Source of the DNA: Rhodohalobacter sulfatireducens
GTDB lineage: Bacteria; Bacteroidota; Rhodothermia; Balneolales; Balneolaceae
Direction of reading: 5' to 3'
Assembly (NCBI RefSeq): GCF_022012475.1
Contig: NZ_JAKLWS010000004.1
Location: 186,001 to 250,000 of the forward strand
Length of the DNA stretch: 64,000 bases
Under the pieces are notes generated by a model, which saw only the letters and a list, made by a program, of their open reading frames with translations, did no database searches and was not told the origin of the DNA. The first letter of the stretch is position 1; every line of letters starts with the position of its first letter. The position numbers and the translations under genes were made by a program. Shown in pieces: positions 16,411-61,195 of the stretch.

Positions 16411-16457
16411 TAAAAAAAGAACGGCAGGCCTGCGCTCAATCAGGCCCGCCGTTTTGT
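16411..16457 (-). terminator. Rho-independent terminator, minus strand
   Basis: On the minus strand a 13-base stem (AACGGCGGGCCTG with CAGGCCTGCCGTT, one mismatch) closes an 8-base loop and is followed by CTTTTTTTA. It lies before the tricorn gene, so it must end transcripts that begin upstream: the short unit behind the operator at 16691, and perhaps the small exported-protein gene or the kinase operon. Confidence 0.8.
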
Positions 16458-16464
16458 CTCTCCG

Positions 16465-16480
16465 TGATCATATATGATCA
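16465..16480. repeat. perfect 16-bp palindrome
   Basis: TGATCATATATGATCA is a perfect palindrome a few bases before the terminator stem on the minus strand. It could fold in a short RNA or bind a regulator. No gene is assigned to it. Confidence 0.4.
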
Positions 16481-16601
16481 ACTAATTGAGTAAAAGTAGT
16501 TTTATTGGGTACTTTCAATTTTGCACCCAAAAAAAACCAACGTAGGAACTCAATCGAGAATATCTAACTCAACCTTCACTTTACAGGCACCTCCATGCCC
16601 G

Positions 16602-16667
16602 CTACACAACTTTGCCAGTTATGTAACAAAAAAGATTGAGTTTAGAAATATCCTCTGCGTTAAGCAT
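16602..16667 (-). CDS. possible 21-residue leader peptide frame
   Basis: On the minus strand, 23 bases after the operator at 16691-16706, an AG-rich stretch (GGAGAGGATTAAAGG) precedes an ATG at 16667 and a frame MLNAEDISKLNLFCYITGKVV. A second frame without ATG (16550-16618) overlaps its end and reads LCSGHGGACKVKVELDILD before its stop. The pair could be a broken small gene, a leader peptide, or a structured RNA; I cannot decide. The whole unit ends at the terminator at 16411-16457. Confidence 0.25.
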   Translation of the reverse strand: MLNAEDISKLNLFCYITGKVV

Positions 16668-16690
16668 ACCTTTAATCCTCTCCAATCTCA

Positions 16691-16706
16691 CTACATAGTC
16701 ATGTAG
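16691..16706 (-). promoter_or_regulatory. putative shared operator, copy 1
   Basis: CTACAT-N4-ATGTAG, a perfect inverted repeat; on the minus strand it reads AACTACATGACTATGTAGTG and is followed by AGATTGG. It matches the sites before both response-regulator genes. It lies 28 bases past the stop of the small exported-protein gene and starts a short unit that ends in the terminator at 16411-16457. Confidence 0.55.
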
Positions 16707-16734
16707 TTTTCAATCAAAAAATGAACTCTTCTAT

Positions 16735-17004
16735 TCATGGCAGCACCTTTGATGTTGAATCCCAGCTTATAGCCCGACCTACAGCCACCGATTCATCTGA
16801 ATCAGGTTTATATTCGGCAGACTGATTCGCTATCAACCGACATGAATTTTTAACAATTTTGGATGTACTGTCTTGAAGATTAAACGACTGATTATTTTCC
16901 GTGGGCAAATTTGAAGAAGCTGTAATAGCCATAACCCCAAAGAATAGTGAAAGTAATATTTTAGCTGTTATGGGCTGAATTTTCTGCTTCAACAAATGCT
17001 TCAT
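16735..17004 (-). CDS. small exported protein of unknown function
   Basis: I do not recognise this 89-residue protein. It starts with a basic region and one hydrophobic segment (about residues 15-32, ILLSLFFGVMAITASS), which looks like a signal peptide. The rest is polar, with one Cys and many Ser/Asn/Asp. Its ATG is preceded by ACAAGG. A copy of the operator-like inverted repeat lies 85 bases upstream, the same site found before the nearby response regulators, so it is probably controlled with the kinase island. It follows the kinase gene on the same strand after about 150 bases. Confidence 0.5.
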   Translation of the reverse strand: MKHLLKQKIQPITAKILLSLFFGVMAITASSNLPTENNQSFNLQDSTSKIVKNSCRLIANQSAEYKPDSDESVAVGRAISWDSTSKVLP

Positions 17005-17089
17005 CCTTGTAGATTACCTGGTACTGACGATTTGAGTGTTCAACCTCTTTGCTCTTTATCAAAGATACTTTCACTTACTCTACCAATCA

Positions 17090-17105
17090 CTACATAGATA
17101 TGCAG
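17090..17105 (-). promoter_or_regulatory. putative shared operator, copy 2
   Basis: On the minus strand the site reads AACTGCATATCTATGTAGTG, followed by ATTGG; one base differs from a perfect repeat. It lies 85 bases before the start of the small exported protein gene and between that gene and the kinase stop. Confidence 0.55.
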
Positions 17106-17157
17106 TTTCTCATTGCTGCTTATAGTAAAATGGATTTATTTGATGAGCTATAATTAA

Positions 17158-20016
17158 TCAGGCAATCGGAATATATATTTCCCAACGGGTACCCTTTCCG
17201 GTCTTTGTTTTAAGTGAATACTCTCCATTTAGTTGTTCAACCCTCTCCTTGATATTTTGCACACCATAACCGTCACTCCGAATCTCAGACGGTTCAAAAC
17301 CTTTCCCATCATCTTCTATTCGGATATGAAGTTTCCCCGATTTCATACGAAAACAGATATCTACTTGATCGGCCTTGGAATGTCGGGCAATATTGGTGAG
17401 AATTTCCCGAAAAATCAGCCATATATTTTTTCGTTCCGTTATTGCGGGACGCCCTGAAAGTGTATCCCGAACTGAAAATTCATACTTGATATTTTGTGCA
17501 TCCAGCATATCAGCCGCAAATCGTTTACATCTCAGGAATAGATTTTCCCAGTCATCATTTTCAGAATGAATAACCCATACAATATCACTGACTTTCTCTT
17601 TTGCCTCTCGGGATGATTTAGTAATCAGCGACAGGAATCGATTGTTCTCTTTCTCATCCAGTTTCTGAGAATTAATCGCATCCGCAAAAAAGTTTATACT
17701 GCTAAGTGTAGAGCTTAATTCATCATGAAGGTCCCTGGCAATCCCATCTCGAATCCGTTGCTCTCTCAGTATAGTGTTCAATCGAATTCGATAACCGCCA
17801 TAAATAATACCACCTGTGATTAAAAGATACCCAATATATGCCCAGATGGTTCGATACCAGGGCGGCAGAACGGTAAATGTAAATGAGTCGATAGCGCCCG
17901 CCTGTTCATATACATTACGTCCCTGAACCTGGAAAGTATAGGTTCCCTCAGGAATAAAAGTGTAGTCTTTTTGAGTTTCATCCGACCAGTCACTCCACTC
18001 CTCTTCATAACCTTTTAAGCGTACGCGGTACGTATTTTCTTCCGGTTCGATATAGCTGGCAGCAGCGTAATTAAATCGCAATTCATTATTCTCAAAGGAG
18101 AACACAGGAGTTTCAGACAACTCACCGTATCCACCATAAACCAACGAATCATTCGGCATGGAAACGGCCGTAATATTGGTGTTAAAATCGTGTTTGTATG
18201 TCCAATTGGGATCGGATAGATGAAACAACCCCTCGCCCCCAAACCAGGCAGTTCCGTCAGGGTTGCAATGGATATTTTCGATCGAGTTATCAGCACCAAT
18301 CAACCGATACGGAATCTCTGTAATTTCCCAGGAATTTTCCTTCCGAACCGCTCTTTTCGTTAGGAAGTTGTTTCGAAACCAAATTTCATCCGGTGAACAC
18401 TGTTCGAATTGAAAGACCTGCGTCGAGTTCAACCCGGGGTCATTGAATGAAGAATCAGGCTGAAAAGAATCGGACTTTGGGTCGTACACAAACAAACCAC
18501 TGTCTGTTCCCAACCTTATCTTATTGTCAATCAGTGCTACATGCCGTATCGGGAGTTCTTCGTTTTCAAAATCAGGAATGTATGTCTCTAATGTATTGCT
18601 GTTCAATGATTTTCGAATCACTTCATTTTGATAGGTAACAGCCCAGATCTCATCTCCATCCACATAAAAATCCCGAAATTCCGATGATTCACTTCTAAGA
18701 ACTTCATCGATCTCTGCCGAATCTCCTTGTATTACTATTTTGTCTATGGAGTGTGATTGTGAGCCAAAAAATGCATCCTCAAAAGCAGCAGACGGCTCGA
18801 GTTTCGAATAGTTTCCATCGCTGTAGAGGTTTACAAGTTCATTGTCCCCTAACCTCAAAAGACCCGGTGGATAAGATACAAACAGAGATCCATTCAGGTT
18901 GATAGCATCATAAACAGTCTGATCGATACCCGGATATTTTTGAATTTCATTTCCGGGTTCAAAGAAAAATAATCCGTTTTGAGAACCAACATAGATCGTG
19001 TCTCCCAGCGATTCAATAAATGATACGATCCCGTTAAACCCATTTTGCTCGGGAATCACAGAGACAGGATTATTAACCAACACCTTTATCATTCCATCAA
19101 CAGAGGTAGCCCAGAGTGTCCCTTCCCGGTCTACATAAATTTCGTAAATCACATTTGTTGGCAGGCCGGTATCCTCGATTATGGTTTTCTTAAGTGATCC
19201 ATCTGTTCCAACAATCAAAATTCCGCCATTTAAAAATGCCAAAGCTATTTCATTTTCATTGATAAATGTTGCCCTATATAAAGAATGTTCCCTCAAATAG
19301 TCATCCACTTCTGATGGTTGATCCGTAAACGTTTCCCCATCGTACTTCACGAATCCCCGATTTCGAAAAATCAACAGTTGATTGCCGGCATAAGGCAGAA
19401 TCGACACCAGGCGATCCTCAATAAACGCTTCAGTGCCGGGAATATCTTCCCACCGGTTACTTTCAATACGCTGAATTCCGCTATTTTCCCTCTGTACCCA
19501 AATTTTGTTACCCACTGTAAATATGCCTCTGAGCCGATCCTGGCTCTCCAAAACCCGAATGGTATCCTCTTCTAAAATATAGATGGCATCGGAAGTGCGG
19601 TGATATAACCTGTTTTGAAATTCCACCATCTGCCATACATCGCCAAATGAGTGTTTCGTTGAATCGATCTGATCTTTAAGCGAATGCAGTGTAAAAGAGT
19701 GAAGTGAATCGCTCACAAAATGTCCGAAATCACCAACACCGCCCCAGTGGATGTTGGAATTAAAAGAATACAACGAGCGAATAGCACCTGTTCCCGGCAC
19801 TCTGTCCCATCTCCAGTTGACTCCATCAAACTGATCTGTTCCCTCTCCCTGGCTTCCAAAATAAAGATATCCCGAGCTGTCTTGAGCAATGGACCAGTGC
19901 TGGGGATGTGAATCGATCGTTTCTGCATCGTAATGGTGGATTAAAGGCATACTCTGTCCCCAAACCAATAAAGGCAGAGATGCATAAAGAAATACTGAAC
20001 TTATCCACTTAGCCAT
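17158..20016 (-). CDS. propeller-type sensor histidine kinase (HisKA_3), copy 1
   Basis: The 952 residues begin with a signal peptide (to about residue 20). Residues 25-640 form a Reg_prop-like beta-propeller region with many W/G-rich blades (DSSGYLYFGSQG, DREGTLWATSVDGM), then a Y_Y_Y domain (YRVRLKGYEEEWSDWS, FIPEGTYTFQVQGRNVY), one membrane segment near 730-750, the HisKA_3 box with His764 in ARDLHDELSS, and a HATPase domain (N-box NIARH near 875, DDGKGF near 902, GYGVQNIKERV). It should sense an outer signal and phosphorylate the response regulator encoded two genes upstream. It is a close paralogue of the kinase at 25919-28783. Confidence 0.92.
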   Translation of the reverse strand: MAKWISSVFLYASLPLLVWGQSMPLIHHYDAETIDSHPQHWSIAQDSSGYLYFGSQGEGTDQFDGVNWRWDRVPGTGAIRSLYSFNSNIHWGGVGDFGHFVSDSLHSFTLHSLKDQIDSTKHSFGDVWQMVEFQNRLYHRTSDAIYILEEDTIRVLESQDRLRGIFTVGNKIWVQRENSGIQRIESNRWEDIPGTEAFIEDRLVSILPYAGNQLLIFRNRGFVKYDGETFTDQPSEVDDYLREHSLYRATFINENEIALAFLNGGILIVGTDGSLKKTIIEDTGLPTNVIYEIYVDREGTLWATSVDGMIKVLVNNPVSVIPEQNGFNGIVSFIESLGDTIYVGSQNGLFFFEPGNEIQKYPGIDQTVYDAINLNGSLFVSYPPGLLRLGDNELVNLYSDGNYSKLEPSAAFEDAFFGSQSHSIDKIVIQGDSAEIDEVLRSESSEFRDFYVDGDEIWAVTYQNEVIRKSLNSNTLETYIPDFENEELPIRHVALIDNKIRLGTDSGLFVYDPKSDSFQPDSSFNDPGLNSTQVFQFEQCSPDEIWFRNNFLTKRAVRKENSWEITEIPYRLIGADNSIENIHCNPDGTAWFGGEGLFHLSDPNWTYKHDFNTNITAVSMPNDSLVYGGYGELSETPVFSFENNELRFNYAAASYIEPEENTYRVRLKGYEEEWSDWSDETQKDYTFIPEGTYTFQVQGRNVYEQAGAIDSFTFTVLPPWYRTIWAYIGYLLITGGIIYGGYRIRLNTILREQRIRDGIARDLHDELSSTLSSINFFADAINSQKLDEKENNRFLSLITKSSREAKEKVSDIVWVIHSENDDWENLFLRCKRFAADMLDAQNIKYEFSVRDTLSGRPAITERKNIWLIFREILTNIARHSKADQVDICFRMKSGKLHIRIEDDGKGFEPSEIRSDGYGVQNIKERVEQLNGEYSLKTKTGKGTRWEIYIPIA

Positions 20017-20028
20017 GAAGAAAAGGTT

Positions 20029-20292
20029 TTACAAATCCTCTTCTTCCTCTTCTGCTTCGCCAACCTCTACTTCAACCCTTTCCTCTCCATTTCCACCATC
20101 ATCAACAACTGATTGAACTCGAATATAGACAGGCTTATTCGTTTTCGATATAAATGTCATATCGAGCAAATTCTCGTTTGTGAGCTTTTTTATAGAGTGT
20201 GGAGAAACAGATTCAGGTTTTTTCTTTGTTTTATCTTTGATGATGAGTTTGGAATCTGTCTTATTTGCTACAGCCTCAACCGTTGGATTCAT
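20029..20292 (-). CDS. small protein between response regulator and kinase genes
   Basis: An 87-residue protein of unknown family, 12 bases upstream of the kinase start. It is Lys-rich at the N-terminal half (KDKTKKKPESVSPHSIKKL) and ends in an acidic tail of Glu residues. A middle strand region reads FISKTNKPVYIRVQSVVDD. No signal peptide or membrane segment is seen. The paralogous module has an unrelated 160-residue protein in the same place, so the slot is kept while the sequence differs. Confidence 0.6.
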   Translation of the reverse strand: MNPTVEAVANKTDSKLIIKDKTKKKPESVSPHSIKKLTNENLLDMTFISKTNKPVYIRVQSVVDDGGNGEERVEVEVGEAEEEEEDL

Positions 20293-20400
20293 AATGTGAA
20301 CTTACTTTTTTATTAGATAGTCTTCATTCCCGAATAGTACTCTTGTTCAAGGGTACCATTTTTTTGGTACTTCAAAAAAAATAATTGCAGAGCATTACAA

Positions 20401-21072
20401 TTATGACTCAGCCATCTTAATAAGCCCGTTCGCCAGGCCTTTGGCTACTGCTTCCGCTTTACTGTTGACCTGCAGCTTGCGGTAAATATTACGAATGTGG
20501 TACCCAACACCATCCACGGAGAGGTAAATCTCCTCTGCGATAGCTGAATAGGAGTTACCTTCTGCTAACAATCGCAATACCTCTTGCTCTCGGTCGGTCA
20601 AATCCAGTTTTTCTTTTTTCTTAGGCTGAGTTTGCATAGAAGCAATTACTTTTCGGGCAATGATTGGCGACATTGGAGAACCACCCTCATAAGCATCTTT
20701 CACTGCCTGGATCAGTTCATCCGGACCCACTTTTTTGATGAGGTACCCTATCGCCCCGTTTTGCAGAGCCTCAAAGATGTGCTGGGAATCTTCCATCACA
20801 GAGATCATGATAATGGATAAGCTCGGATTGATCTCTAAAAACTTCTCAACGCCTTCCGTACCCATAATGCCGGGAAGCTGAATGTCTAACAGGATGATAT
20901 CACACCATTCAATGTCATCGGACTCGAGTGCTGATTCACAATCCCGAAACACACTTTTCACAACAATTTGAGAATCACTGTCGAGGATCGTCTCCCACCC
21001 CTCACGGATATATTGATTATCCTCTACAATGACGACGCGTATGAGTTCCGATTCCTGTCCGTTTTCTTCCAT
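20401..21072 (-). CDS. NarL/FixJ-family response regulator, copy 1
   Basis: 223 residues: a receiver domain with acidic pocket VEDNQ, phosphorylation site Asp63 in ILLDIQLPG, and Lys113 in YLIKKV, then a LuxR-type helix-turn-helix (LTDREQEVLRLLAEGNSYSAIAEEI, VGYHIRNIYRKLQVNSKAEAVAKG). It heads the module with the small protein and the kinase. A perfect CTACAT-N4-ATGTAG repeat lies 43 bases before the ATG, which suggests autoregulation. It is closely similar to the second regulator at 29314-29970, so cross-talk between the two systems is likely. Confidence 0.93.
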   Translation of the reverse strand: MEENGQESELIRVVIVEDNQYIREGWETILDSDSQIVVKSVFRDCESALESDDIEWCDIILLDIQLPGIMGTEGVEKFLEINPSLSIIMISVMEDSQHIFEALQNGAIGYLIKKVGPDELIQAVKDAYEGGSPMSPIIARKVIASMQTQPKKKEKLDLTDREQEVLRLLAEGNSYSAIAEEIYLSVDGVGYHIRNIYRKLQVNSKAEAVAKGLANGLIKMAES

Positions 21073-21115
21073 CCGCTTTTTTATTTAAAAATGGCTATGA
21101 TTCAGAAGCCAATCA

Positions 21116-21131
21116 CTACATGGTTATGTAG
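21116..21131 (-). promoter_or_regulatory. putative shared operator, copy 3
   Basis: On the minus strand AACTACATAACCATGTAGTG, a perfect CTACAT/ATGTAG repeat followed by ATTGG, 43 bases before the response-regulator start. The extended match to copies 1 and 2 includes the bases outside the repeat. Confidence 0.6.
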
Positions 21132-21381
21132 TTTTTTGTAGATCATTCAACCGTGAATAGATTTCAATTTAAAAGACTTTCGAAGACTTTCTAAGCTTCT
21201 TCAGGACTCGATTCGCACAAATTGATCAAACGCTATAGTAGTATCACAGACTTCGGAAGTCTCATGATGGGTAGTTTTAGTTAACCGAAAATGGGGTAGG
21301 ATGCAAATTGCAGATAGATTTTGGTAAAAAAATTTAACTCTCGACGATATTTTTTCACAACTCACCTAATTTCGTAATTCT
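21132..21381. other. non-coding gap with a short palindrome
   Basis: This stretch between the response-regulator promoter and the end of the lipoprotein operon has no convincing frame. It contains the palindrome AGACTTCGGAAGTCT at 21248-21262, which recurs in near-identical form at 30113-30131. No T-run follows it, so I do not call a terminator. Confidence 0.5.
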
Positions 21382-22905
21382 TTATCTCGGTAAGTATCTA
21401 AGAAATTCACCATACACACCCACCGCATATACCGTTTGACTGTCAATGATTTGAATTTGTGCTGTGATTACAGAATCGTCGCCATTTATTACATTTTGGC
21501 GACTCCATGAAGCTCCACCATTTGTGGTCATAAATATTCCCTGGTTAGCTCCAATCCACCCTAGGCTTGAGTTGATAAATTGCATATCAAAACTCCCACC
21601 AAACTGTGATAAATCCGTTTGTAAACTCCAGTTTTTGCCACCATCATTGGTTTTATACATTCCATTCCTATTAAAACCCCATCCAGTTGAACTGTTTACA
21701 AAGTCAACGAGATAATAGCTTTCTGAAGCTTGCTTCCAATTAATCCCTGCATTCTCAGATCTAAAAGTTTGAGGTGCACCAGGAACCCATAACGTACTCG
21801 GTCCTGACTCTTCAACTTCACCCAGTGTAACCCAGCCATCTGGGTGATTTTCACCAAACAATTCTATCTCTTCCCAGTTTTGTCCGCCATTGATTGATCT
21901 CAATAAAAGTCCATCATTTTCTGTTTCTTTCAGATCCTCATCATCATAACCCGATACGAATATTTTGTTTTGGTTCAATGCAGTTATATAACAAGCACAC
22001 GAACGATCAACCGTGTATTGTTCTCTCCAGGTTTGACCTCCATTGTCTGTATAAAAAATAACTCCACTATTAAAATGATCTGTGTCAGCATTTCCGCCTC
22101 CAACAGCCCAGCCAATATTCTTATCAACAAACATTATATCTGTAAATTGCCATTCTTTATTTGTAAACTGATGATTCCAGCCATAACCTCCATTATCGGT
22201 GTGATAAATTGAATATTCATTCTCTCCGGCATCGGGATTAATTGTCGTTATCCAGCCTTCATTTTTATTTAGGAAAAATGATGACGTTACATGTTCAGTT
22301 ACTGAATTTTCGATAACCCACTTACCACTTCCTGAGACAAACACAGCATCCGCATTCACCTCATCCTCAAACGATACCTCCACCGGATTTTCCGTGCCAT
22401 TAACATCTCCTTCCCAGCTTACAAATTGCCAGCCATCCTCAGGTGTGGCTGTGAGTCGGACCCGGCGATCCGCGTGTTTCATTTTTCCATTCTCATCCAG
22501 TATTTCTACATCCACATCTCCTTCTCCCTCAATTTCCACTTTAACATCCTCGTGCTGAAAAATAGCTGTGACTGATATATTATTTGAAATTGAGATACTT
22601 TTTGGATTATCAGCTCCCTCGACACCCCCTTCCCAACGTATAAACTCCCACTGCTCGGCAGGAACGGCCATCAGTTCTACCATAGAACCTTCTGCATATT
22701 CGGTTAATTTTGAACTCAATTGGGATTCTTTGACTTCACCCTGACCTTTGATCTCTACGGAAAGTGAATGGGTTTCCTCTTCCGAAACAGATGAAGAGGA
22801 ATCGGGTGAACAGGAGAGAATCAAACATGCAAGAATACACACAAGTACGATACAAGTTGCATTTTTCTGTAGAAGATGATTTGATCTGTTTTTCAATTGA
22901 CTCAT
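21382..22905 (-). CDS. InlB-repeat / Ycf48-like repeat lipoprotein
   Basis: A 507-residue lipoprotein: basic start, hydrophobic segment and lipobox LILSC. Residues 45-195 hold two divergent InlB B-repeat-like units (EGSMVELMAVPAEQWEFIRWEGG, RRVRLTATPEDGWQFVSWEGDV). From about 200 on there are BNR/Ycf48-like repeats with the recurring GWxxG and DGGxxW pattern (HTDNGGYGWNHQF, YTDNGGQTWREQY, KTNDGGKNWSLQ), probably a beta-propeller. It is last in a three-gene operon, 15 bases after the FISUMP gene, and is a shorter paralogue of the first gene of that operon. Confidence 0.8.
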   Translation of the reverse strand: MSQLKNRSNHLLQKNATCIVLVCILACLILSCSPDSSSSVSEEETHSLSVEIKGQGEVKESQLSSKLTEYAEGSMVELMAVPAEQWEFIRWEGGVEGADNPKSISISNNISVTAIFQHEDVKVEIEGEGDVDVEILDENGKMKHADRRVRLTATPEDGWQFVSWEGDVNGTENPVEVSFEDEVNADAVFVSGSGKWVIENSVTEHVTSSFFLNKNEGWITTINPDAGENEYSIYHTDNGGYGWNHQFTNKEWQFTDIMFVDKNIGWAVGGGNADTDHFNSGVIFYTDNGGQTWREQYTVDRSCACYITALNQNKIFVSGYDDEDLKETENDGLLLRSINGGQNWEEIELFGENHPDGWVTLGEVEESGPSTLWVPGAPQTFRSENAGINWKQASESYYLVDFVNSSTGWGFNRNGMYKTNDGGKNWSLQTDLSQFGGSFDMQFINSSLGWIGANQGIFMTTNGGASWSRQNVINGDDSVITAQIQIIDSQTVYAVGVYGEFLRYLPR

Positions 22906-22920
22906 CTGCCCTCCTTGATC

Positions 22921-23907
22921 TTAATCCCTGACACATCTGACCGACATACCTGTAGCTTTTGATAAACCCTCTTCGGTATTCCACACACTGCGCCAAAACC
23001 AATTATAAATATATAAACTGGCTCGGTACATAGGATTTATATCCACATCTTCCGTGTAAGGATCGTCAATCTCATCCTGTAACCAAATCCAAGAAGTTTC
23101 GCCAAATGTTACGAACCCATTCAAATCACGTAAACCTGATGGAAGAGCAGAAAATCCAGTTTCGTTTGTGGCTCCTTCATTGGGCTGATGCCATATGTTA
23201 ATAGCTTTAATTTTTCCACCAACATTCTCATCTTCTCCCCGAAATCCCTGAAAGCTGTATGCTTCTTCTTCCGGCATCCCCAGGAACATCTCCATCTCGA
23301 TCCAGTCCTTATCGGTAGAGACGTGCCATCCATCGGGGCAGATATTTCGGGGATCATCCACGGCGTACCAGTTATAAAGCTTGCCGTGGAGGTTATTATG
23401 GATCTCATCGTTATCATAATAGCTCCAGGCACCGGTGGTCAGGTTATCCCACTCTTGTTGATTGGTGACGTTGGGAATTTCATCTCCGTTAGCATACCGG
23501 CTGGTTCGCAGGTTCTGCGCCATCCACTCCTGATCCCCAATGATCACTGTTTCATAGCCGTTCCCATCGATGTCGGTAACACCTTCCTCAAAGTTTGCCA
23601 CCAGGTTTTTATCACTGTCCATAATCACCAGCGTTTCCGGAAGCGAACCGGATTGGTCGCCCGACCATTTTGAAAATACCCAGTCCTTATTGTTTTTTGC
23701 GACCACTTCCACTCGCTCACCCTCCTCAAATTGACCTTCTGCAGGTGTTACACTTCCCGCTTCTTCAGGAACTACGGAAATGGTAAGTGTATACATTTCA
23801 GGTGTAGATGAGGAAGTATCAGAGGAACATGAAAAACCCCAAATACCCATGGCTGTAATAACTATGAGTACCATACAGAGTTCACTATATTTCAATGGTT
23901 GTCCCAT
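22921..23907 (-). CDS. FISUMP-domain lipoprotein with one InlB-like repeat
   Basis: A 328-residue lipoprotein (lipobox near GFSC). Residues 40-110 form one InlB B-like repeat (GERVEVVAKNNKDWVFSKWSG). The rest is the Fibrobacter succinogenes major paralogous domain: VIIGDQEWMAQNLRTSRYANGD, GKLYNWYAVDDPRNICPDGWHV, ETGFSALPSGLRDLNG, and the end VRCVRD. This domain is common in cell-surface proteins of Bacteroidota and Fibrobacter; no reaction is known. It sits in the middle of a lipoprotein operon, 17 bases after the first gene. Confidence 0.85.
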   Translation of the reverse strand: MGQPLKYSELCMVLIVITAMGIWGFSCSSDTSSSTPEMYTLTISVVPEEAGSVTPAEGQFEEGERVEVVAKNNKDWVFSKWSGDQSGSLPETLVIMDSDKNLVANFEEGVTDIDGNGYETVIIGDQEWMAQNLRTSRYANGDEIPNVTNQQEWDNLTTGAWSYYDNDEIHNNLHGKLYNWYAVDDPRNICPDGWHVSTDKDWIEMEMFLGMPEEEAYSFQGFRGEDENVGGKIKAINIWHQPNEGATNETGFSALPSGLRDLNGFVTFGETSWIWLQDEIDDPYTEDVDINPMYRASLYIYNWFWRSVWNTEEGLSKATGMSVRCVRD

Positions 23908-23924
23908 ATTTCTTTATTTAAATA

Positions 23925-25670
23925 TTATTCCTGTGAATAACGTAGTATTGAGCCGCCTACCGAAACCCAACCCGTTTGACTGTCAACAAAGTTGAATGAG
24001 CCAACGCCATCCGAAACGCTCACTGGATTGCCATTATCGTATACCTGCTGCTCATTCCAGGTCTCTCCACCATCTGTAGTTTGTTGAATTGTTCCGTTGT
24101 CAGTACCCATCCATCCGAGTTCAGAATTAACAAAATAGATGTATGCAAAACCTGATATTGACCTCTGCTCACTCCAACTTTGACCACCATTCGTTGTTTT
24201 AAATATCTGACTTCTCACATCCGGATGGTTCGAAAAATCAAATTTTACTCCCCAACCGATGCTACCGTTTACAAAGTTAATCCTACTGAAAGAATGATCT
24301 GAGACAATACTCCAGCTGTTACCGCCATTGCCGGTTTTATACAGTCCATTCATTCCCGTCATCCAGCCGTTGTCATCTCCAGAAAAATCCACATCCAAAT
24401 GCATTTCAGGATCATCCGAAACAGATTGTTGTGTCCAGGAACTGCCTCCGTTGTTTGAACTGATGATCACTCCGTGTTCTCCCAATTCAGGTTTATTAAT
24501 ATCCACTTCGCCAACCACAATAATGGTATTCGAATTTACAAGCTCTAAAGAGTATGCAATCGCGTCTTCAAAATAGTATTGTTCACTCCAACTTTGTCCG
24601 CCATTGCTTGTGTGCAAAATTTTTCCATACCAATTAACTTCTTCACCGAACGGATAAGCCCCTATTAAAGCCCAGCCATTATTTTCATCTGCAAATTCAA
24701 GATCATAAAAGAACTCTCTGACATTCCCGGCTTTATACTGCTCCGACCAGGTTTGCCCGCCATCGTTTGTATGAAATATTGATCCGGATTCTTCAAACGG
24801 TATATCAGACGTGGATAACCATCCAGTATTCTGATTCGTAAAATGTACTGAGCTTATTGGCCTGTTGGTCACTCTGCCCTGCAGAATCCATCTTCCCTCA
24901 TCCGAAACAAATACCGCATCTACGGTCATCTCTTCGTCGAAGGTGGTTTCGATGGGGTTTTCTGAACCGGTCAGGTCACCCTCCCAGCTTACAAATTTCC
25001 AGCCTTCTTGAGGTGTAGCGGTAAGCCGAACACGCCTTGATGCTGATTTTCGTTTCCCGGTTTCTTCATCAATGTACTCCACTTGTACATCCCCTTCACC
25101 CTCAACAATTACGTTCACCACCTTTTCAAACATTGCAGTAACACTTACCGGTGAATTGATCGTAACTGTCTCCGGATTTTCCTGACCTGAAAGAGACTCA
25201 TCCCAACCGGTAAATTCCCAACCGCCTGCGGGTACGGCTGTCAACTCCACAACAGACTCCGCCGGGTAATCGGTAGATTTTGCATTCACCAACCGCTCTT
25301 CAACTGTTCCCTCTCCTTCGATGTTTACAGTCAGTGCATACTCTTTTTTCTCGAACAGGGCGCTCAAGGATTTATCATCATCCATCATAATGGTGGCGGG
25401 ATTGGTTGATCCCGAATAGTCACCGCCCCAGCCGGTAAATACCCAATGCTCATTAGCTGAAGCACTAACCTGTACTTCCGTGCCTTTATCATATTCACCC
25501 TGGTCCGGGGAAACTGAACCCGCCTCTGCCGGTGATACGTTTGTGGTTAAGGTATAAACGGGGGTGTTTTCAGTGGAGCAGGAGCTCACAGCAATAAGCG
25601 AGGCCCCAAGAATAAATAACCATGCAGGCAATTTTATTACAGTCGATATTCTGTTCTTTCTCCTTTTCAT
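23925..25670 (-). CDS. InlB-repeat / Ycf48-like repeat lipoprotein, long copy
   Basis: A 581-residue lipoprotein with lipobox AVSSC after a hydrophobic segment. Three InlB B-like repeats span about residues 38-260 (HWVFTGWGGDYSGSTNP, GWEFTGWDESLSGQENP, GWKFVSWEGDLTGSENP). Then come six or so Ycf48/BNR-type repeats, each with a Gly-Trp turn and DGGxxW (HTNDGGQTWSEQY, HTSNGGQSWSEQYY, QTTDGGETWNEQQ). It heads the three-gene operon; the operator-like repeat at 25737-25752 is 66 bases before its ATG. Cell-surface binding is inferred; the ligand is unknown. Confidence 0.82.
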   Translation of the reverse strand: MKRRKNRISTVIKLPAWLFILGASLIAVSSCSTENTPVYTLTTNVSPAEAGSVSPDQGEYDKGTEVQVSASANEHWVFTGWGGDYSGSTNPATIMMDDDKSLSALFEKKEYALTVNIEGEGTVEERLVNAKSTDYPAESVVELTAVPAGGWEFTGWDESLSGQENPETVTINSPVSVTAMFEKVVNVIVEGEGDVQVEYIDEETGKRKSASRRVRLTATPQEGWKFVSWEGDLTGSENPIETTFDEEMTVDAVFVSDEGRWILQGRVTNRPISSVHFTNQNTGWLSTSDIPFEESGSIFHTNDGGQTWSEQYKAGNVREFFYDLEFADENNGWALIGAYPFGEEVNWYGKILHTSNGGQSWSEQYYFEDAIAYSLELVNSNTIIVVGEVDINKPELGEHGVIISSNNGGSSWTQQSVSDDPEMHLDVDFSGDDNGWMTGMNGLYKTGNGGNSWSIVSDHSFSRINFVNGSIGWGVKFDFSNHPDVRSQIFKTTNGGQSWSEQRSISGFAYIYFVNSELGWMGTDNGTIQQTTDGGETWNEQQVYDNGNPVSVSDGVGSFNFVDSQTGWVSVGGSILRYSQE

Positions 25671-25736
25671 AATCGTGTGGTTTTGTTATCAGCCAACTTT
25701 CGTACTGAAGTGTAATTTTGTGGAACTACACTTGCA

Positions 25737-25752
25737 CTACATGAATGTGTAC
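25737..25752 (-). promoter_or_regulatory. putative shared operator, copy 4 (degenerate)
   Basis: On the minus strand GTACACATTCATGTAGTG: the right half ATGTAGTG is intact and the left half is degenerate. It lies 66 bases before the first lipoprotein gene. By itself it would be weak; it is called because of position and the exact right half. Confidence 0.4.
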
Positions 25753-25880
25753 CAGAGAGAAGAGGAGAATTATAGAATCTTCTTTGCAATAGTTTTTTGT
25801 CAACCGAACTATTCATTGGCAATCACTTAAATGAAAAGAAGTGGCTTATAAGAACTATAATGCAAAAGTACCACCATATG

Positions 25881-25916
25881 AACGCTTCACGAAGCTGCGC
25901 ACACTTGAAGGTTCTT
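25881..25916. repeat. dispersed short repeat, copy A
   Basis: AACGCTTCACGAAGCTGCGC followed by ACACTTGAAGGTTCTT resembles the stretch at 32483-32517 over about 36 bases (AACGCTTCA..., CTTGAAGGTTCT identical). It lies directly after the kinase stop. The ends are inversely related (CTTCA, TTGAAG), so it can form a hairpin. Confidence 0.45.
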
Positions 25917-25918
25917 AC

Positions 25919-28783
25919 TTACCCAACCGGCAGATCAATCATCCAGCGCGTTCCCTCTCCGGGCATACTTTCAAGGGTGCACTTGGCTTTTAACTGCTGA
26001 GCTCTCTCTTTGATATTTTGAACACCGTACCCATCCTCACGGGTATTTTCAGGGTCAAAGCCTTTGCCGTTGTCTTCGATATGGATGTGCAGTTTCTCGA
26101 ATTCCATCGTGAAGCGAATATCTACCTGATTGGGCTCAGCGTGACGGGCAATATTGGTGAGAATCTCCCTGAAAATCAGCCAGATATTTTTCTTTTGATT
26201 GATGCTGGGTTTTCCCGTAAATAATCCCTTGATATCAAATGAATGTTGAATATTCCTTGCATCCAGGATATCCGAAGCGAACCGTTTACATCTCATCAGA
26301 AGGTTGTCCCAGTCGTCATTTTCAGTATGGATCACCCAGACGATATCACTGATTTTCTCTTTCGCCTCGAGGGATGATTTTTTGATCAGAGAGAGATACC
26401 GGTTCTCTTTTTGAGTTTCCGTTTTCGGGGAATCCATCGCATTGGCAAAGAAACTGATACTGCTTAGAGTTGAGCTCAGTTCATCGTGGAGATCGCGTGC
26501 GATTCCATCGCGGATTCGCTGCTCTTTCAGGATGGAGTTGAGCCGGATTTTGTGGCCTGTATAGACCACTCCACCTGCAAGACACAAATAAGCAAGATAG
26601 GCCCAAATCGTACGATACCAGGGAGGAAGAACGGTAAACGTATATGAATCGATGCTGCCCGTTTTGTAATAGACATTTCGTCCCTGTACTTCAAACGTAT
26701 AAGTCCCTTCCGGGATGAAGGTGAAATCTTTCTGCGGCTCATCCGACCAACTGCTCCACTCATCCTCATACCCTCGCAGGCGGGTTCTGTACTGGTTCGC
26801 CTCCGGTTCGATATAACTGGCGGCCGCGTAGGTAAATCGAAGTTCATTCTCCCCAAAATCCAACTCCTTTATTTCTGACGGATCGCCATATCCACCATAG
26901 ATCAGAGAATCATTTCTGACCAGTACGCCCGTGATATTGGTATTAAAATCGTATTCGTAGGACCATTCCGGATCTGTTAAATGGTAGAGTTTCGTTGAAC
27001 TCCCAAACCATACCGAACCTTCATCATCACAAAAAATAGTTTCAACTCCCTCATCCAAACCTCTCGCTATGGTCCTGTAAGGATTTGTAAGAGTTCGCCA
27101 ATTTCCATTCTCTCGCACTGCTCTCTTTATTTTCCGGTGATTACGAAACCAAACATCATTTTCGGAACACTGCCGGAACCGGAATACCTCTTCATTTTGG
27201 ATTTCAGGATCGTTGAAGGTGCTATCAGAAACAAATTCATCACTTGATTCATCGTACAAAAAGAGTCCCTCGTCTGTACCCATCCGAATTTTACCCGCAA
27301 TCCGACCGATCCTGTTCAGTCTAGATTCCTCTGAAATGGAAACTCTGTAGCTCGATAATTGAATTCCATCTAAATTGAACAGGTGAACCGTATTATCGGC
27401 AGCCAATATCCATAACCTCTGACGATCTTTAACGGCGTGGATTATCTCTGAATTTATTTCAAGAAGTGGCTCACTGCTTATGGAATTATTATTAACATTC
27501 AGTTTGTCAATCTTACGTTCAGATACCCCCAAAATAAGATCCGACTGCCAAGAATCGGTTATGAACGTTCTGTAACTACTTCCCGATAGTTTTAACGCCT
27601 CGCCGGCAGTGTGACTGTAAACTCCGGAGCCGGTTGTTAGAATGAATGTATCATCGAGAATGATTCCGTCATATACCCTGCCATTAATAGACTCATTTTG
27701 AATTAAATTACCGGATTCGCCAAAAGTAAGCAGTCCTTCGGTTGTACCGAAAGCAGTCTGTTCGTTAAATGAAGTGATAAAAAGCGGAATACCGGTTAAG
27801 CCTCTACTCTCATCCCAAACTTTCAGAGGATTATTTACCAGAACTTTAGCGATCCCGTTACCTGAGGTCGCCCAAAGTGTCTCTTCACGGTCCAGGTAGA
27901 CGTTATAAACCATGTTTGTAGGCAGACCATCCTCTTCACGAAATATTTGAACAAGTTCACCCTGTTGATTGATAACAACAACTCCACCATCGAGGGTCGT
28001 TACGGCTATTTCAGTTTCATTGATTTGAGCTGCCCTGAACACCCGATTCGCAATAATGTATTCTGATGATTCTGTTTCAATGGGTTCAAATGCTTCTCCA
28101 TTAAAGCGAACAATCCCCTTCTTTCTTGAAAAAAACAGGTGACCAATTTGAGTGGATATGACATCATATATCGCATCATCATTAAAAAAATTATGATCAG
28201 GAAGCGGCCTTAGATGATCACCCTCGAGATAATACAGTTCCCCATTTTCTTTCTGAACCAGTACCTGGTCCTCAAATTCAAATATTCCCATAAACTGTTC
28301 CTCGGGAAACAGGACCTCTATGGTATCCCCTCTTGATATATAAATGCCATTCGAATTCCTGTGATAGATCTCTCCATCCACTTCAATCATTTGCCACAGG
28401 TACGAAAAATTCTGGTATGCACTGTCAATCCGCGAGCGATGGCTAAGAGGCGTAAATTGGTTCAGGCTATCACTCTTGATAATCCCTAAATCCCCGTTTC
28501 CTCCCCAATAAATGTTATTTTGATGCTCTGCAAACATCAGAACGGCACTTCCTTTCGGAGCATGCTTTACCGGGTGCCACTTCTCGCCATCAAAACTCAA
28601 CAACCCCGTACTGTTCCCAAAAAAAAGAATGCCGGAACTGTCCTGCATGGCCGACCAGTTCTGGCGAAAGTAGTTATGGGTTTCGGGGTCATATGACTCA
28701 ACTTGTGCCATACCCTTCTCAAATATTCCAAAGAATAAACAAAGAGAAAAGAGCAGGGTTAGGTTTGAGCGGTGCCTGGACAT
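25919..28783 (-). CDS. propeller-type sensor histidine kinase (HisKA_3), copy 2
   Basis: A 954-residue paralogue of the kinase at 17158-20016 with the same order: signal peptide (ends near GMAQ), Reg_prop-like propeller (DSSGILFFGNSTGLLSFDGEKW, DREETLWATSGNG), Y_Y_Y domain (YRTRLRGYEDEWSSWS), membrane segment near 733-752, His766 in ARDLHDELSS and the HATPase domain (NIARH, EDNGKGF, GYGVQNIKER). The kinase cores are far more alike than the propellers, so the two systems probably sense different signals but may share outputs. It is third in its module after the response regulator and a 160-residue protein. Confidence 0.92.
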   Translation of the reverse strand: MSRHRSNLTLLFSLCLFFGIFEKGMAQVESYDPETHNYFRQNWSAMQDSSGILFFGNSTGLLSFDGEKWHPVKHAPKGSAVLMFAEHQNNIYWGGNGDLGIIKSDSLNQFTPLSHRSRIDSAYQNFSYLWQMIEVDGEIYHRNSNGIYISRGDTIEVLFPEEQFMGIFEFEDQVLVQKENGELYYLEGDHLRPLPDHNFFNDDAIYDVISTQIGHLFFSRKKGIVRFNGEAFEPIETESSEYIIANRVFRAAQINETEIAVTTLDGGVVVINQQGELVQIFREEDGLPTNMVYNVYLDREETLWATSGNGIAKVLVNNPLKVWDESRGLTGIPLFITSFNEQTAFGTTEGLLTFGESGNLIQNESINGRVYDGIILDDTFILTTGSGVYSHTAGEALKLSGSSYRTFITDSWQSDLILGVSERKIDKLNVNNNSISSEPLLEINSEIIHAVKDRQRLWILAADNTVHLFNLDGIQLSSYRVSISEESRLNRIGRIAGKIRMGTDEGLFLYDESSDEFVSDSTFNDPEIQNEEVFRFRQCSENDVWFRNHRKIKRAVRENGNWRTLTNPYRTIARGLDEGVETIFCDDEGSVWFGSSTKLYHLTDPEWSYEYDFNTNITGVLVRNDSLIYGGYGDPSEIKELDFGENELRFTYAAASYIEPEANQYRTRLRGYEDEWSSWSDEPQKDFTFIPEGTYTFEVQGRNVYYKTGSIDSYTFTVLPPWYRTIWAYLAYLCLAGGVVYTGHKIRLNSILKEQRIRDGIARDLHDELSSTLSSISFFANAMDSPKTETQKENRYLSLIKKSSLEAKEKISDIVWVIHTENDDWDNLLMRCKRFASDILDARNIQHSFDIKGLFTGKPSINQKKNIWLIFREILTNIARHAEPNQVDIRFTMEFEKLHIHIEDNGKGFDPENTREDGYGVQNIKERAQQLKAKCTLESMPGEGTRWMIDLPVG

Positions 28784-28804
28784 TTTTAACGGTTCAGTTA
28801 TAAA

Positions 28805-29287
28805 TCAGCCATTGCCACCGGGATCATCAGGATGAATGATAGTTGGATCTTTATGGATTTCTTGAATATCAGGACAGTGAGGACGATCATCATATAAATG
28901 ATAATGAATCACGACCCTGTATTTATAACCATCTAATCGATTATTTCTAAGCTTATTAACTTCTACATGATGCAGTTCGCGACATTTGCCATTAAGATCA
29001 CTCAGCTTTCGATATTTCCCAGGATGTACCTTAATTCCCTCTACTCCATTTAGTTCAGGCACTTTCTTTGTGTAAATGTAGACTTTAAATTCCGTTGCAC
29101 TTAAATCGCAAGGCTCAATTTTAATTTCCTTTTTTCCTGATCTTCCATTTTGTCGCTTGCTTACAACTGTACCTGGTAAACCCTCATCACTAGGTTTATC
29201 TATTGATCTGAATGTTAGCCACTTATCATCAATCTTAAATGCGATTAAAGCTTCTACATCTATATTTAATTCACTAGTTATTTCCAT
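28805..29287 (-). CDS. protein of unknown function between response regulator and kinase
   Basis: A 160-residue protein I do not recognise. It has no signal peptide or membrane segment. It looks beta-rich (VEALIAFKIDDKWLTFRSID, EFKVYIYTKKVPEL, KYRVVIHYHLYDDRPHCPD) and ends in a Pro/Asp/Gly tail. It occupies the same slot as the 87-residue protein of the first module, but the two do not look alike. It lies 21 bases before the kinase start and 26 bases after the regulator stop, so all three should share a transcript. Confidence 0.6.
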   Translation of the reverse strand: MEITSELNIDVEALIAFKIDDKWLTFRSIDKPSDEGLPGTVVSKRQNGRSGKKEIKIEPCDLSATEFKVYIYTKKVPELNGVEGIKVHPGKYRKLSDLNGKCRELHHVEVNKLRNNRLDGYKYRVVIHYHLYDDRPHCPDIQEIHKDPTIIHPDDPGGNG

Positions 29288-29313
29288 CTTCTGAAATTTT
29301 TAAAAGTTAAGCT

Positions 29314-29970
29314 TCAAGTTATATTTATCAATCCATTCTTAATCCCCTTCGCCACGGCGGCAGCTTTGCTGTTCACTTGTAGTTTCCGGTAGATATTTCG
29401 AATGTGGTATCCCACTCCGTCTACGGTCAGATCCAGCTCTTTACCGATGGCGGAGTACGAATGCCCGTTTGCTAATAGATCCAGCACTTCCGTTTCGCGG
29501 TCGTTAATCTCCAGTTTTTTTGCTTTTGGTGATAACTGCAGGGACGAAATCACCTTTCGTGCAATCATGGGAGACATGGGGGAGCCGCCTTCATAGGCAT
29601 CTTTTACAGCCTGTACCAGCTCCTCCGGTTCGATCTTTTTAATCATGTAGCCGACCGCACCATTGCGCAACGCTTCAAAAATATGCTCCGAGTCCTCCAT
29701 GATCGTAATCATGACAATGGCCAGGCCCGGGTTGATCTCTAAAAACTTTTCAACCCCTTCCGTCCCCAAAATTCCCGGCAGTTGAATATCCAGCAGAATA
29801 ATGTCGCACCACTTAATATCTTCTGATTGAAGGGCTGATTCACAATCCCGAAATGTTCTCTTAACTACGATGTCGGGATCATCATCGAGGGTCATGGTCC
29901 AGCCCTCGCGAATATATTGGTTATCCTCTACTATAATGACCCGAATCAGTTTTGCTATGTCGTTACTCAT
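29314..29970 (-). CDS. NarL/FixJ-family response regulator, copy 2
   Basis: 218 residues from the ATG at 29970: receiver with Asp61 in ILLDIQLPG and Lys in YMIKKI, then a LuxR-type helix-turn-helix (INDRETEVLDLLANGHSYSAIGKEL, VGYHIRNIYRKLQVNSKAAAVAKG). A frame open to 30114 would add 48 residues, but these have no similarity to the other copy and would cover the operator-like repeat at 30021-30036, so I use the shorter start. It is highly similar to copy 1, especially in the DNA-recognition helix, which supports common target sites. Confidence 0.92.
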   Translation of the reverse strand: MSNDIAKLIRVIIVEDNQYIREGWTMTLDDDPDIVVKRTFRDCESALQSEDIKWCDIILLDIQLPGILGTEGVEKFLEINPGLAIVMITIMEDSEHIFEALRNGAVGYMIKKIEPEELVQAVKDAYEGGSPMSPMIARKVISSLQLSPKAKKLEINDRETEVLDLLANGHSYSAIGKELDLTVDGVGYHIRNIYRKLQVNSKAAAVAKGIKNGLINIT

Positions 29971-30020
29971 GCTCTTTTTTATCTTTTCGCTCAAAGTGAG
30001 AATCCGGCCAAGCAATCGCA

Positions 30021-30036
30021 CTACATAATCAAGTAC
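30021..30036 (-). promoter_or_regulatory. putative shared operator, copy 5 (degenerate)
   Basis: On the minus strand GTACTTGATTATGTAGTG followed by CGATTGC. The right half ATGTAGTG is exact and the left half degenerate. It lies 50 bases before the second response-regulator start, the same relation as copy 3 to the first regulator. Confidence 0.5.
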
Positions 30037-30100
30037 TCCATTTAAATACTTGAATTTGCTGATTAAAACAAGAAATGAGTAAAGAATTAGAGAAGTTAAA

Positions 30101-60966: not shown

Positions 60967-61195
60967 GGATTTTCTCTTTTATTCTCGATTTGTATGTAGT
61001 GGAACGATCTTTTTCTCCACTTCCCCGTTTTCCAAAATATTCTTCTCCGATATCGTAGGGACGATTATATTTCTTCTCTTTGGAGATATACTCTACTAAT
61101 GCCTCTTTGATAATATTTGACCGAGATACTTTCTTTTGCTCGGCAAGTGACTTCAACTCTTTTTCAATCTCATCCGGTAATCGAACGGAACGCAT
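60947..61195 (-). CDS. ribbon-helix-helix antitoxin
   Basis: An 82-residue partner of the PIN toxin. The N-terminal half is a CopG/Arc-type ribbon-helix-helix (SVRLPDEIEKELKSLAEQKKVSRSNIIKEALVEYIS); the basic C-terminal half would wrap the toxin. The antitoxin comes first and overlaps the toxin by 20 bases, so the pair is coupled and likely self-repressed through DNA upstream of 61195. Confidence 0.85.
   Translation of the reverse strand: MRSVRLPDEIEKELKSLAEQKKVSRSNIIKEALVEYISKEKKYNRPYDIGEEYFGKRGSGEKDRSTTYKSRIKEKIREKQSD

Follow-up and report, generated by a model that had tools for sequence, protein, structure and literature searches.

In streptococci, the CiaRH two-component system controls the csRNAs, several small, terminator-ended intergenic RNAs, together with protein targets, through a regulator repeat placed at a fixed distance from the -10 box, and these csRNAs were predicted by the same logic as is applied here and were later detected (PMC3091779). 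In Listeria, LisRK governs the multicopy sibling small RNAs LhrC1-5, which act on a surface-protein mRNA (PMC4132741), and in the pseudomonads the LuxR-HTH response regulator GacA is associated with an upstream palindrome before the small RNAs RsmX, RsmY and RsmZ (PMC2375449). The Rsm RNAs titrate CsrA/RsmA. The arrangement considered here, found in a 64,000-nucleotide stretch of Rhodohalobacter sulfatireducens (the window, meaning the whole of the DNA analysed) and in its relatives, resembles each of these systems in part. It differs from CiaR in that the CiaR site is a direct repeat (TTTAAG-N5-TTTAAG) whereas here a palindrome is paired with a putative LuxR-HTH regulator, in that an RNA gene is often found immediately 3' of the gene for the regulator, and in that the RNAs are unrelated to the csRNAs by Rfam search. 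No consensus LisR site is known in PMC4132741, and the regulator, phylum and RNA are all different from those here. Strict membership of the GacA-Rsm group was rejected, as CsrA (PF02599) was absent from the six genomes searched while control genomes were positive. ComA of Bacillus subtilis is likewise a LuxR-HTH response regulator that uses an inverted repeat, the halves of which are 4 bp apart; its half-site (TTGCGG), its targets and its promoter type are unlike those described below.

The window carries two duplicated two-component systems. Along the minus strand the order is site s5, RR2, a 160-aa open reading frame (ORF), HK2, site s4, three lipoprotein genes, site s3, RR1, an 87-aa ORF, HK1, site s2, an 89-aa exported protein, site s1 and a terminator-ended unit. 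The genes are as follows.

29314..29970, minus strand: RR2, second response regulator (PF00072 and PF00196 above cut-off), with the same recognition helix as RR1
28805..29287, minus strand: small uncharacterised 160-aa ORF between RR2 and HK2
25919..28783, minus strand: HK2, propeller/Y_Y_Y sensor kinase with HATPase, HisKA_3 just under cut-off
21382..25670, minus strand: three genes for lipoproteins (InlB-type repeats, BNR/sortilin-like, Fib_succ_major), tentatively assigned to s4
20401..21072, minus strand: RR1, receiver and LuxR-HTH response regulator (PF00072 and PF00196 above cut-off)
20029..20292, minus strand: small uncharacterised 87-aa ORF between RR1 and HK1, with homologues in G068 and G066
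17158..20016, minus strand: HK1, propeller/Y_Y_Y/HisKA_3 sensor kinase with HATPase
16735..17004, minus strand: 89-aa exported protein, predicted target of s2, with positional homologues at L076 11417-11686 and L077 7681-8004 that are similar at the C-terminus

Both RR1 and RR2 have a receiver followed by a GerE/LuxR HTH, which places them among the NarL/FixJ response regulators. They are 76% identical overall, and across the recognition-helix region (VDGVGYHIRNIYRKLQVNSKA) they are the same, which bears out an earlier note on this DNA that had called the two helices near-identical and makes a shared regulon the natural reading. The 87-aa and 160-aa ORFs matched no Pfam family, nor did the 89-aa exported protein. 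Many of the loci have a small uncharacterised ORF separating regulator from kinase, or immediately ahead of the kinase, further instances being the following.

L120 4384-4758: small ORF of this kind
L139 10142-10561: small ORF of this kind
L118 11798-12244: small ORF of this kind
L127 10863-11534: small ORF of this kind

At their ends many of these ORFs carry a motif resembling HxPxVxHP or HxC(D/N)P; some of the ORFs adjoin S8 or trypsin-like protease genes. Contig C105 of G000 (L073 6187-9712) holds a third two-component system, its genes arranged likewise and its regulator 43% identical to RR1; neither a class A nor a class B site (the two types are defined below) was found upstream of its regulator gene.

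The same earlier note had reported five minus-strand copies of one inverted repeat, three of them full and two with a degenerate left half. All five are present, with the 20-mers or halves beginning at 16689, 17088, 21114, 25735 and 30019, two bases below the figures first given, and the three full sites conform exactly to AACTRCAT-N4-ATGTAGTG.

30020..30037, minus strand: site s5, degenerate AGTACTTGATTATGTAGT, two mismatches to the symmetric 18-bp core; probable
25736..25753, minus strand: site s4, degenerate GGTACACATTCATGTAGT, three mismatches to the symmetric 18-bp core; tentative
21115..21132, minus strand: site s3, ACTACATAACCATGTAGT, exact
17089..17106, minus strand: site s2, ACTGCATATCTATGTAGT, exact to ACYRCAT-N4-ATGYRGT and kept in G068 and G066 (L076 11315, L077 8096)
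16690..16707, minus strand: site s1, ACTACATGACTATGTAGT, exact, at the same place in G068 and G066 (L076 11714, L077 7659)

The distances from site to gene given before hold to within about two bases, being 41-48 nt for the two regulator genes, 64 for the lipoprotein operon and 83 for the exported protein. By contrast, ATTGG, which had been put forward as a shared element just downstream, is not conserved, and relatives show GAATGG, GTTTAA or GTTGGG in that place. In a pattern search of the 5.1-Mb genome, s1-s3 were the sole exact copies of AACTRCAT-N4-ATGTAGTG, and none of 100 dinucleotide-shuffled versions of the window reached the observed count of palindrome matches. The window contains six copies of the half-site ATGTAGTG, where 0.94 would be expected; one of them, at 60994 on the plus strand, is unrelated to the five sites. 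The palindrome by itself does not separate s4 and s5 from background: with three mismatches to the 20-mer allowed there are 96 matches in the genome and 96 for the control, and these two sites therefore need other support. For s5, the nearest relative, in G060, carries an exact site at the corresponding position. The half-site combined with a -7 box was tried as a genome-wide predictor and rejected as not specific (eight matches, seven for the control).

That the palindromes are dispersed mobile or structural repeats (REP/MITE-like) with no regulatory role could be argued from the equality with the control at three mismatches and from an unexplained exact core on contig C47 of G000 (L072 7855), which has TACAATC rather than a TAnnTT box at 21 nt; this copy was set aside. 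We regard such an origin as extremely improbable, because only four exact copies of the core pattern exist in the window's genome and because the sites are intergenic, are kept at orthologous places in diverged genera and stand at a fixed promoter spacing. A further palindrome with one mismatch lies on C47 at L072 13414, 5.6 kb from the exact one.

Conservation was assessed in 92 genomes of the family, 39 of which, the window's own included, contain relatives of RR1. The exact pattern ACYRCAT-N4-ATGYRGT occurs 97 times in the 92 genomes, against 17 for a backward-pattern control; 85 of these sites (control 7) fall in the 39 RR-positive genomes and 12 (control 10) in the 53 RR-negative ones. 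Site and regulator co-occur by genome with a Fisher p of 3.8e-8, which is only indicative as the genomes are related. Open frames of 100 aa or more take up 89% of the DNA in the fetched loci; even so, of the 76 exact sites there, 75 are intergenic, and the single one that is not lies inside a doubtful ORF over a small-RNA promoter. Most of the regulator orthologues fetched, from many genera, have ACYRCAT-N4-ATGYRGT upstream with few or no mismatches, and outside the closest relatives the regulators that carry it are only about half identical. The exact site is absent from several RR-positive genomes (G001, G002, G004, G008, G036, G077, g19), some of which have near or class B sites, and in G044 and G048 the regulator gene itself has no site directly upstream.

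Some genera have a second regulator, class B, whose own gene is preceded by a different palindrome, ACYRCCT-N4-AGGYRGT. The HTH differs correspondingly at the end of the recognition region, being V[HN]S[RK] or similar in class A and [VA][SKR]N[RK] in class B. This joint change of site and HTH is the strongest indication from sequence that each regulator binds at the promoter of its own gene. In g4, the RNA adjoining the class B regulator has a class A-type site (L087 9222, L127 4540, L128 15195, L138 14920), which suggests cross-talk from class A to the class B locus. As binding of the regulator to the palindrome is a prediction, and as 12 sites occur in genomes with no close regulator detected, some other transcription factor might be the one that binds. 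We think this distinctly improbable: those 12 sites are about the control rate of 10, and the palindrome co-occurs with the regulator, sits at the regulator's own promoter and changes with the HTH in class B. Of the shared-regulon claim made previously, what stands is a palindrome that is conserved at orthologous regulators, co-occurs with them, is intergenic and co-varies with the HTH; ATTGG is not part of the site, and s4 is only a tentative member. A shared autoregulatory regulon is, in our view, very probable.

The promoters that follow the sites were compared across 75 sites oriented by their downstream unit, orientation being unambiguous for 24 regulator promoters. A TAnnTT box starts exactly 21 nt past the 18-bp core in 33 of the 75, no other single offset being used more than twice in either set, and among the 24 regulator promoters conservation at the key positions of the box reaches 96% for A and 100% for T. 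Conservation by column is low in the interval between site and box, except for a G immediately after the site, and no -33 motif is evident there. In the window the corresponding boxes are these.

29992-29998, minus strand: CACTTTG box, 21 nt downstream of s5
25708-25714, minus strand: TACACTT box, 21 nt downstream of s4
21087..21093, minus strand: -7-like box CATTTTT, 21 nt after s3
17061..17067, minus strand: -7-like box TATCTTT(G), 21 nt after s2
16662..16668, minus strand: -7-like box TATGCTT, beginning 21 nt after s1

The box resembles the -7 element of the Bacteroidota, TAnnTTTG (PMC7366714). If it is taken as the -7, the centre of the palindrome falls near -41.5, and the fixed spacing points to activation from about that position. 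A centre near -41.5 is the position of a class II activator. The site does cover the -33 region, and autoregulators frequently repress, so that bound regulator could instead block polymerase at its own and other promoters; the strict 21-nt spacing to the -7 box and the lack of a conserved -33 motif fit activation better, and we consider repression improbable and activation, as predicted from this geometry, likely.

The unit at the end of the array, which had been described before as a short terminator-bound unit headed by s1, is indeed closed by an intrinsic terminator (about 16412-16452).

16412..16661, minus strand: predicted structured small RNA of 250 nt, putatively driven by s1, its 5' end being approximate
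16412..16452, minus strand: its intrinsic terminator, a GC-rich hairpin and T-run, read directly and folded

The predicted RNA is of extreme computed stability, with an MFE of -98.4 kcal/mol (z -10.1). The copy in G068, the only strong relative in a DNA search, is 85% identical (z -6.8), and that in G066 is diverged (z -6.0), sharing with the window's RNA a CAUAUAUGAU hairpin and a CUGAUUGAGC terminator loop. Covariation on both sides of the helices is weak, with four kept and ten broken pairs against G068. Rfam gave nothing at gathering score for the window unit, the best match being a sub-threshold L20_leader (E 0.2). The unit looks like a gene for a structured small RNA and an example of a family-wide feature. 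It lies after HK1 and the exported protein, unlike the RNAs next to regulator genes in relatives.

What comes after the site and box in G044, G048, G049, G050 and G059 is no gene but a unit of some 95-120 nt, in which a conserved core TTGAGAACTGAGAACACACA is followed by AGAGA and then by a terminator hairpin with a T-run. Of the eight base pairs predicted for the terminator, six have changed on both sides in one sequence or more. At a threshold of 47 bits a covariance model, R1, recovers 20 copies, twelve of which were used to build it, so that only the remaining ones are independent, and the palindrome is just upstream in 18 of the 20; it was upstream of none of the 13 weaker hits checked, and scores below about 40 bits were taken as noise. 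Eleven R1 siblings are found in G048 and six in G044, as against the single copy found of the window's RNA in its own genome. Within the G048 set are four tandem RNA genes (L153 4252-4829) spaced exactly 188 bp apart, all of which have a palindrome and a terminator of their own, an arrangement that reflects recent amplification. Two strong copies at array ends, L216 1260-1364 (G048 C102:24323) and L213 1501-1593 (G044 C6:193173), are without the palindrome and are possibly decayed or co-transcribed.

In g4 and g21 the regulator gene has another kind of RNA, of about 75 nt, immediately at its 3' side, once per genome in seven genomes (model R2, built on the copies from six of them); this RNA has a 5' hairpin with a UCCUUCC loop, CUAACCUA and a terminator, and six of its pairs show both-side changes. 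Further genera have regulator, site, box and terminator in the same order with other RNA sequences, and Rfam returned no match at the gathering threshold in nine loci. As in the CiaR-csRNA and LisR-LhrC types, a site stands at a fixed distance from a box, and the next feature is an intrinsic terminator, without any intervening gene. Many of the sites head such short predicted units, in which no reading frame is conserved.

An AtuA-family gene often comes next after the regulator-adjacent RNA, past the terminator, as at L087 13783-15153 (PF07287), where it follows regulator and RNA on the same strand; in g3, g4 and g21 loci and in other genera a gene of similar size occupies this position. The terminator-ended units might accordingly be 5' leaders of the next gene, with attenuators or small leader peptides, since an AtuA-family gene or one of similar size follows on the same strand in g3, g4 and g21, and a tricorn-protease-like gene (by reading of the sequence) does so after the window unit. 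Such leaders seem to us unlikely, as several units in G044 and G048 precede convergent or distant genes, tandem copies precede only more copies, and G068 does not preserve the frame that opens within the window unit. Transcription of the terminator-ended units as small RNAs is the reading we hold with good confidence, and we lean, less firmly, towards these predicted RNAs regulating mRNAs in trans.

Sites also stand upstream of exported-protein genes in other genera, encoding PEGA-domain proteins (several g4 genomes) and T9SS-tailed cohesin/CBM proteins, and some are near S8 or trypsin-like protease genes adjoining the kinase. Exported and surface genes linked to the site fit an envelope or surface role. 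T9SS sorting tails in family members, together with the -7 box, suggest the Bacteroidota/Balneolota/Rhodothermota group, probably Balneolota. For the window's lipoprotein operon, membership of the regulon through s4 is evenly balanced.

We propose that the propeller/Y_Y_Y sensor kinase would phosphorylate the NarL/FixJ-type LuxR-HTH response regulator, a dimer of which would bind ACYRCAT-N4-ATGYRGT centred at about -41.5 and recruit RNA polymerase to a Bacteroidota-type -7 box (TAnnTT) beginning 21 nt downstream. The regulator would in this way activate its own operon, exported and surface proteins and at least one short RNA with an intrinsic terminator. In the window, the duplicated RR1/HK1 and RR2/HK2 may use common sites, with RR1, the 89-aa exported protein and the 250-nt RNA as predicted targets, RR2 as a probable one and the lipoprotein operon as a possible one. 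An autoregulated two-component system that controls surface proteins and new small RNAs is thus, judged from the DNA, a likely overall account. More speculatively, regulator gene and adjacent small-RNA gene could form a family-wide module held by a common palindromic promoter, the RNA being rebuilt per lineage (about 75, 110 or 250 nt) with around eleven copies in one species; the RNAs might then titrate an RNA-binding protein other than CsrA through repeated single-stranded motifs (e.g. UGAGAAC-UGAGAAC), a separately evolved Gac/Rsm-like logic, which we rate as rather doubtful.

No described regulon was found for two-component systems of a propeller kinase and a LuxR regulator in this bacterial group, and here binding site, promoter geometry, autoregulation and linked, undescribed small RNAs are all legible from sequence. 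The natural change of specificity between classes A and B makes regulator-DNA recognition directly testable, and promoter-anchored small RNAs are offered for the Balneolaceae, for which a literature search on small RNAs gave none. Together the sites indicate that the same putative switch would operate across the whole family, on the regulator's own gene, on surface-protein genes and on a previously undescribed set of small RNAs.
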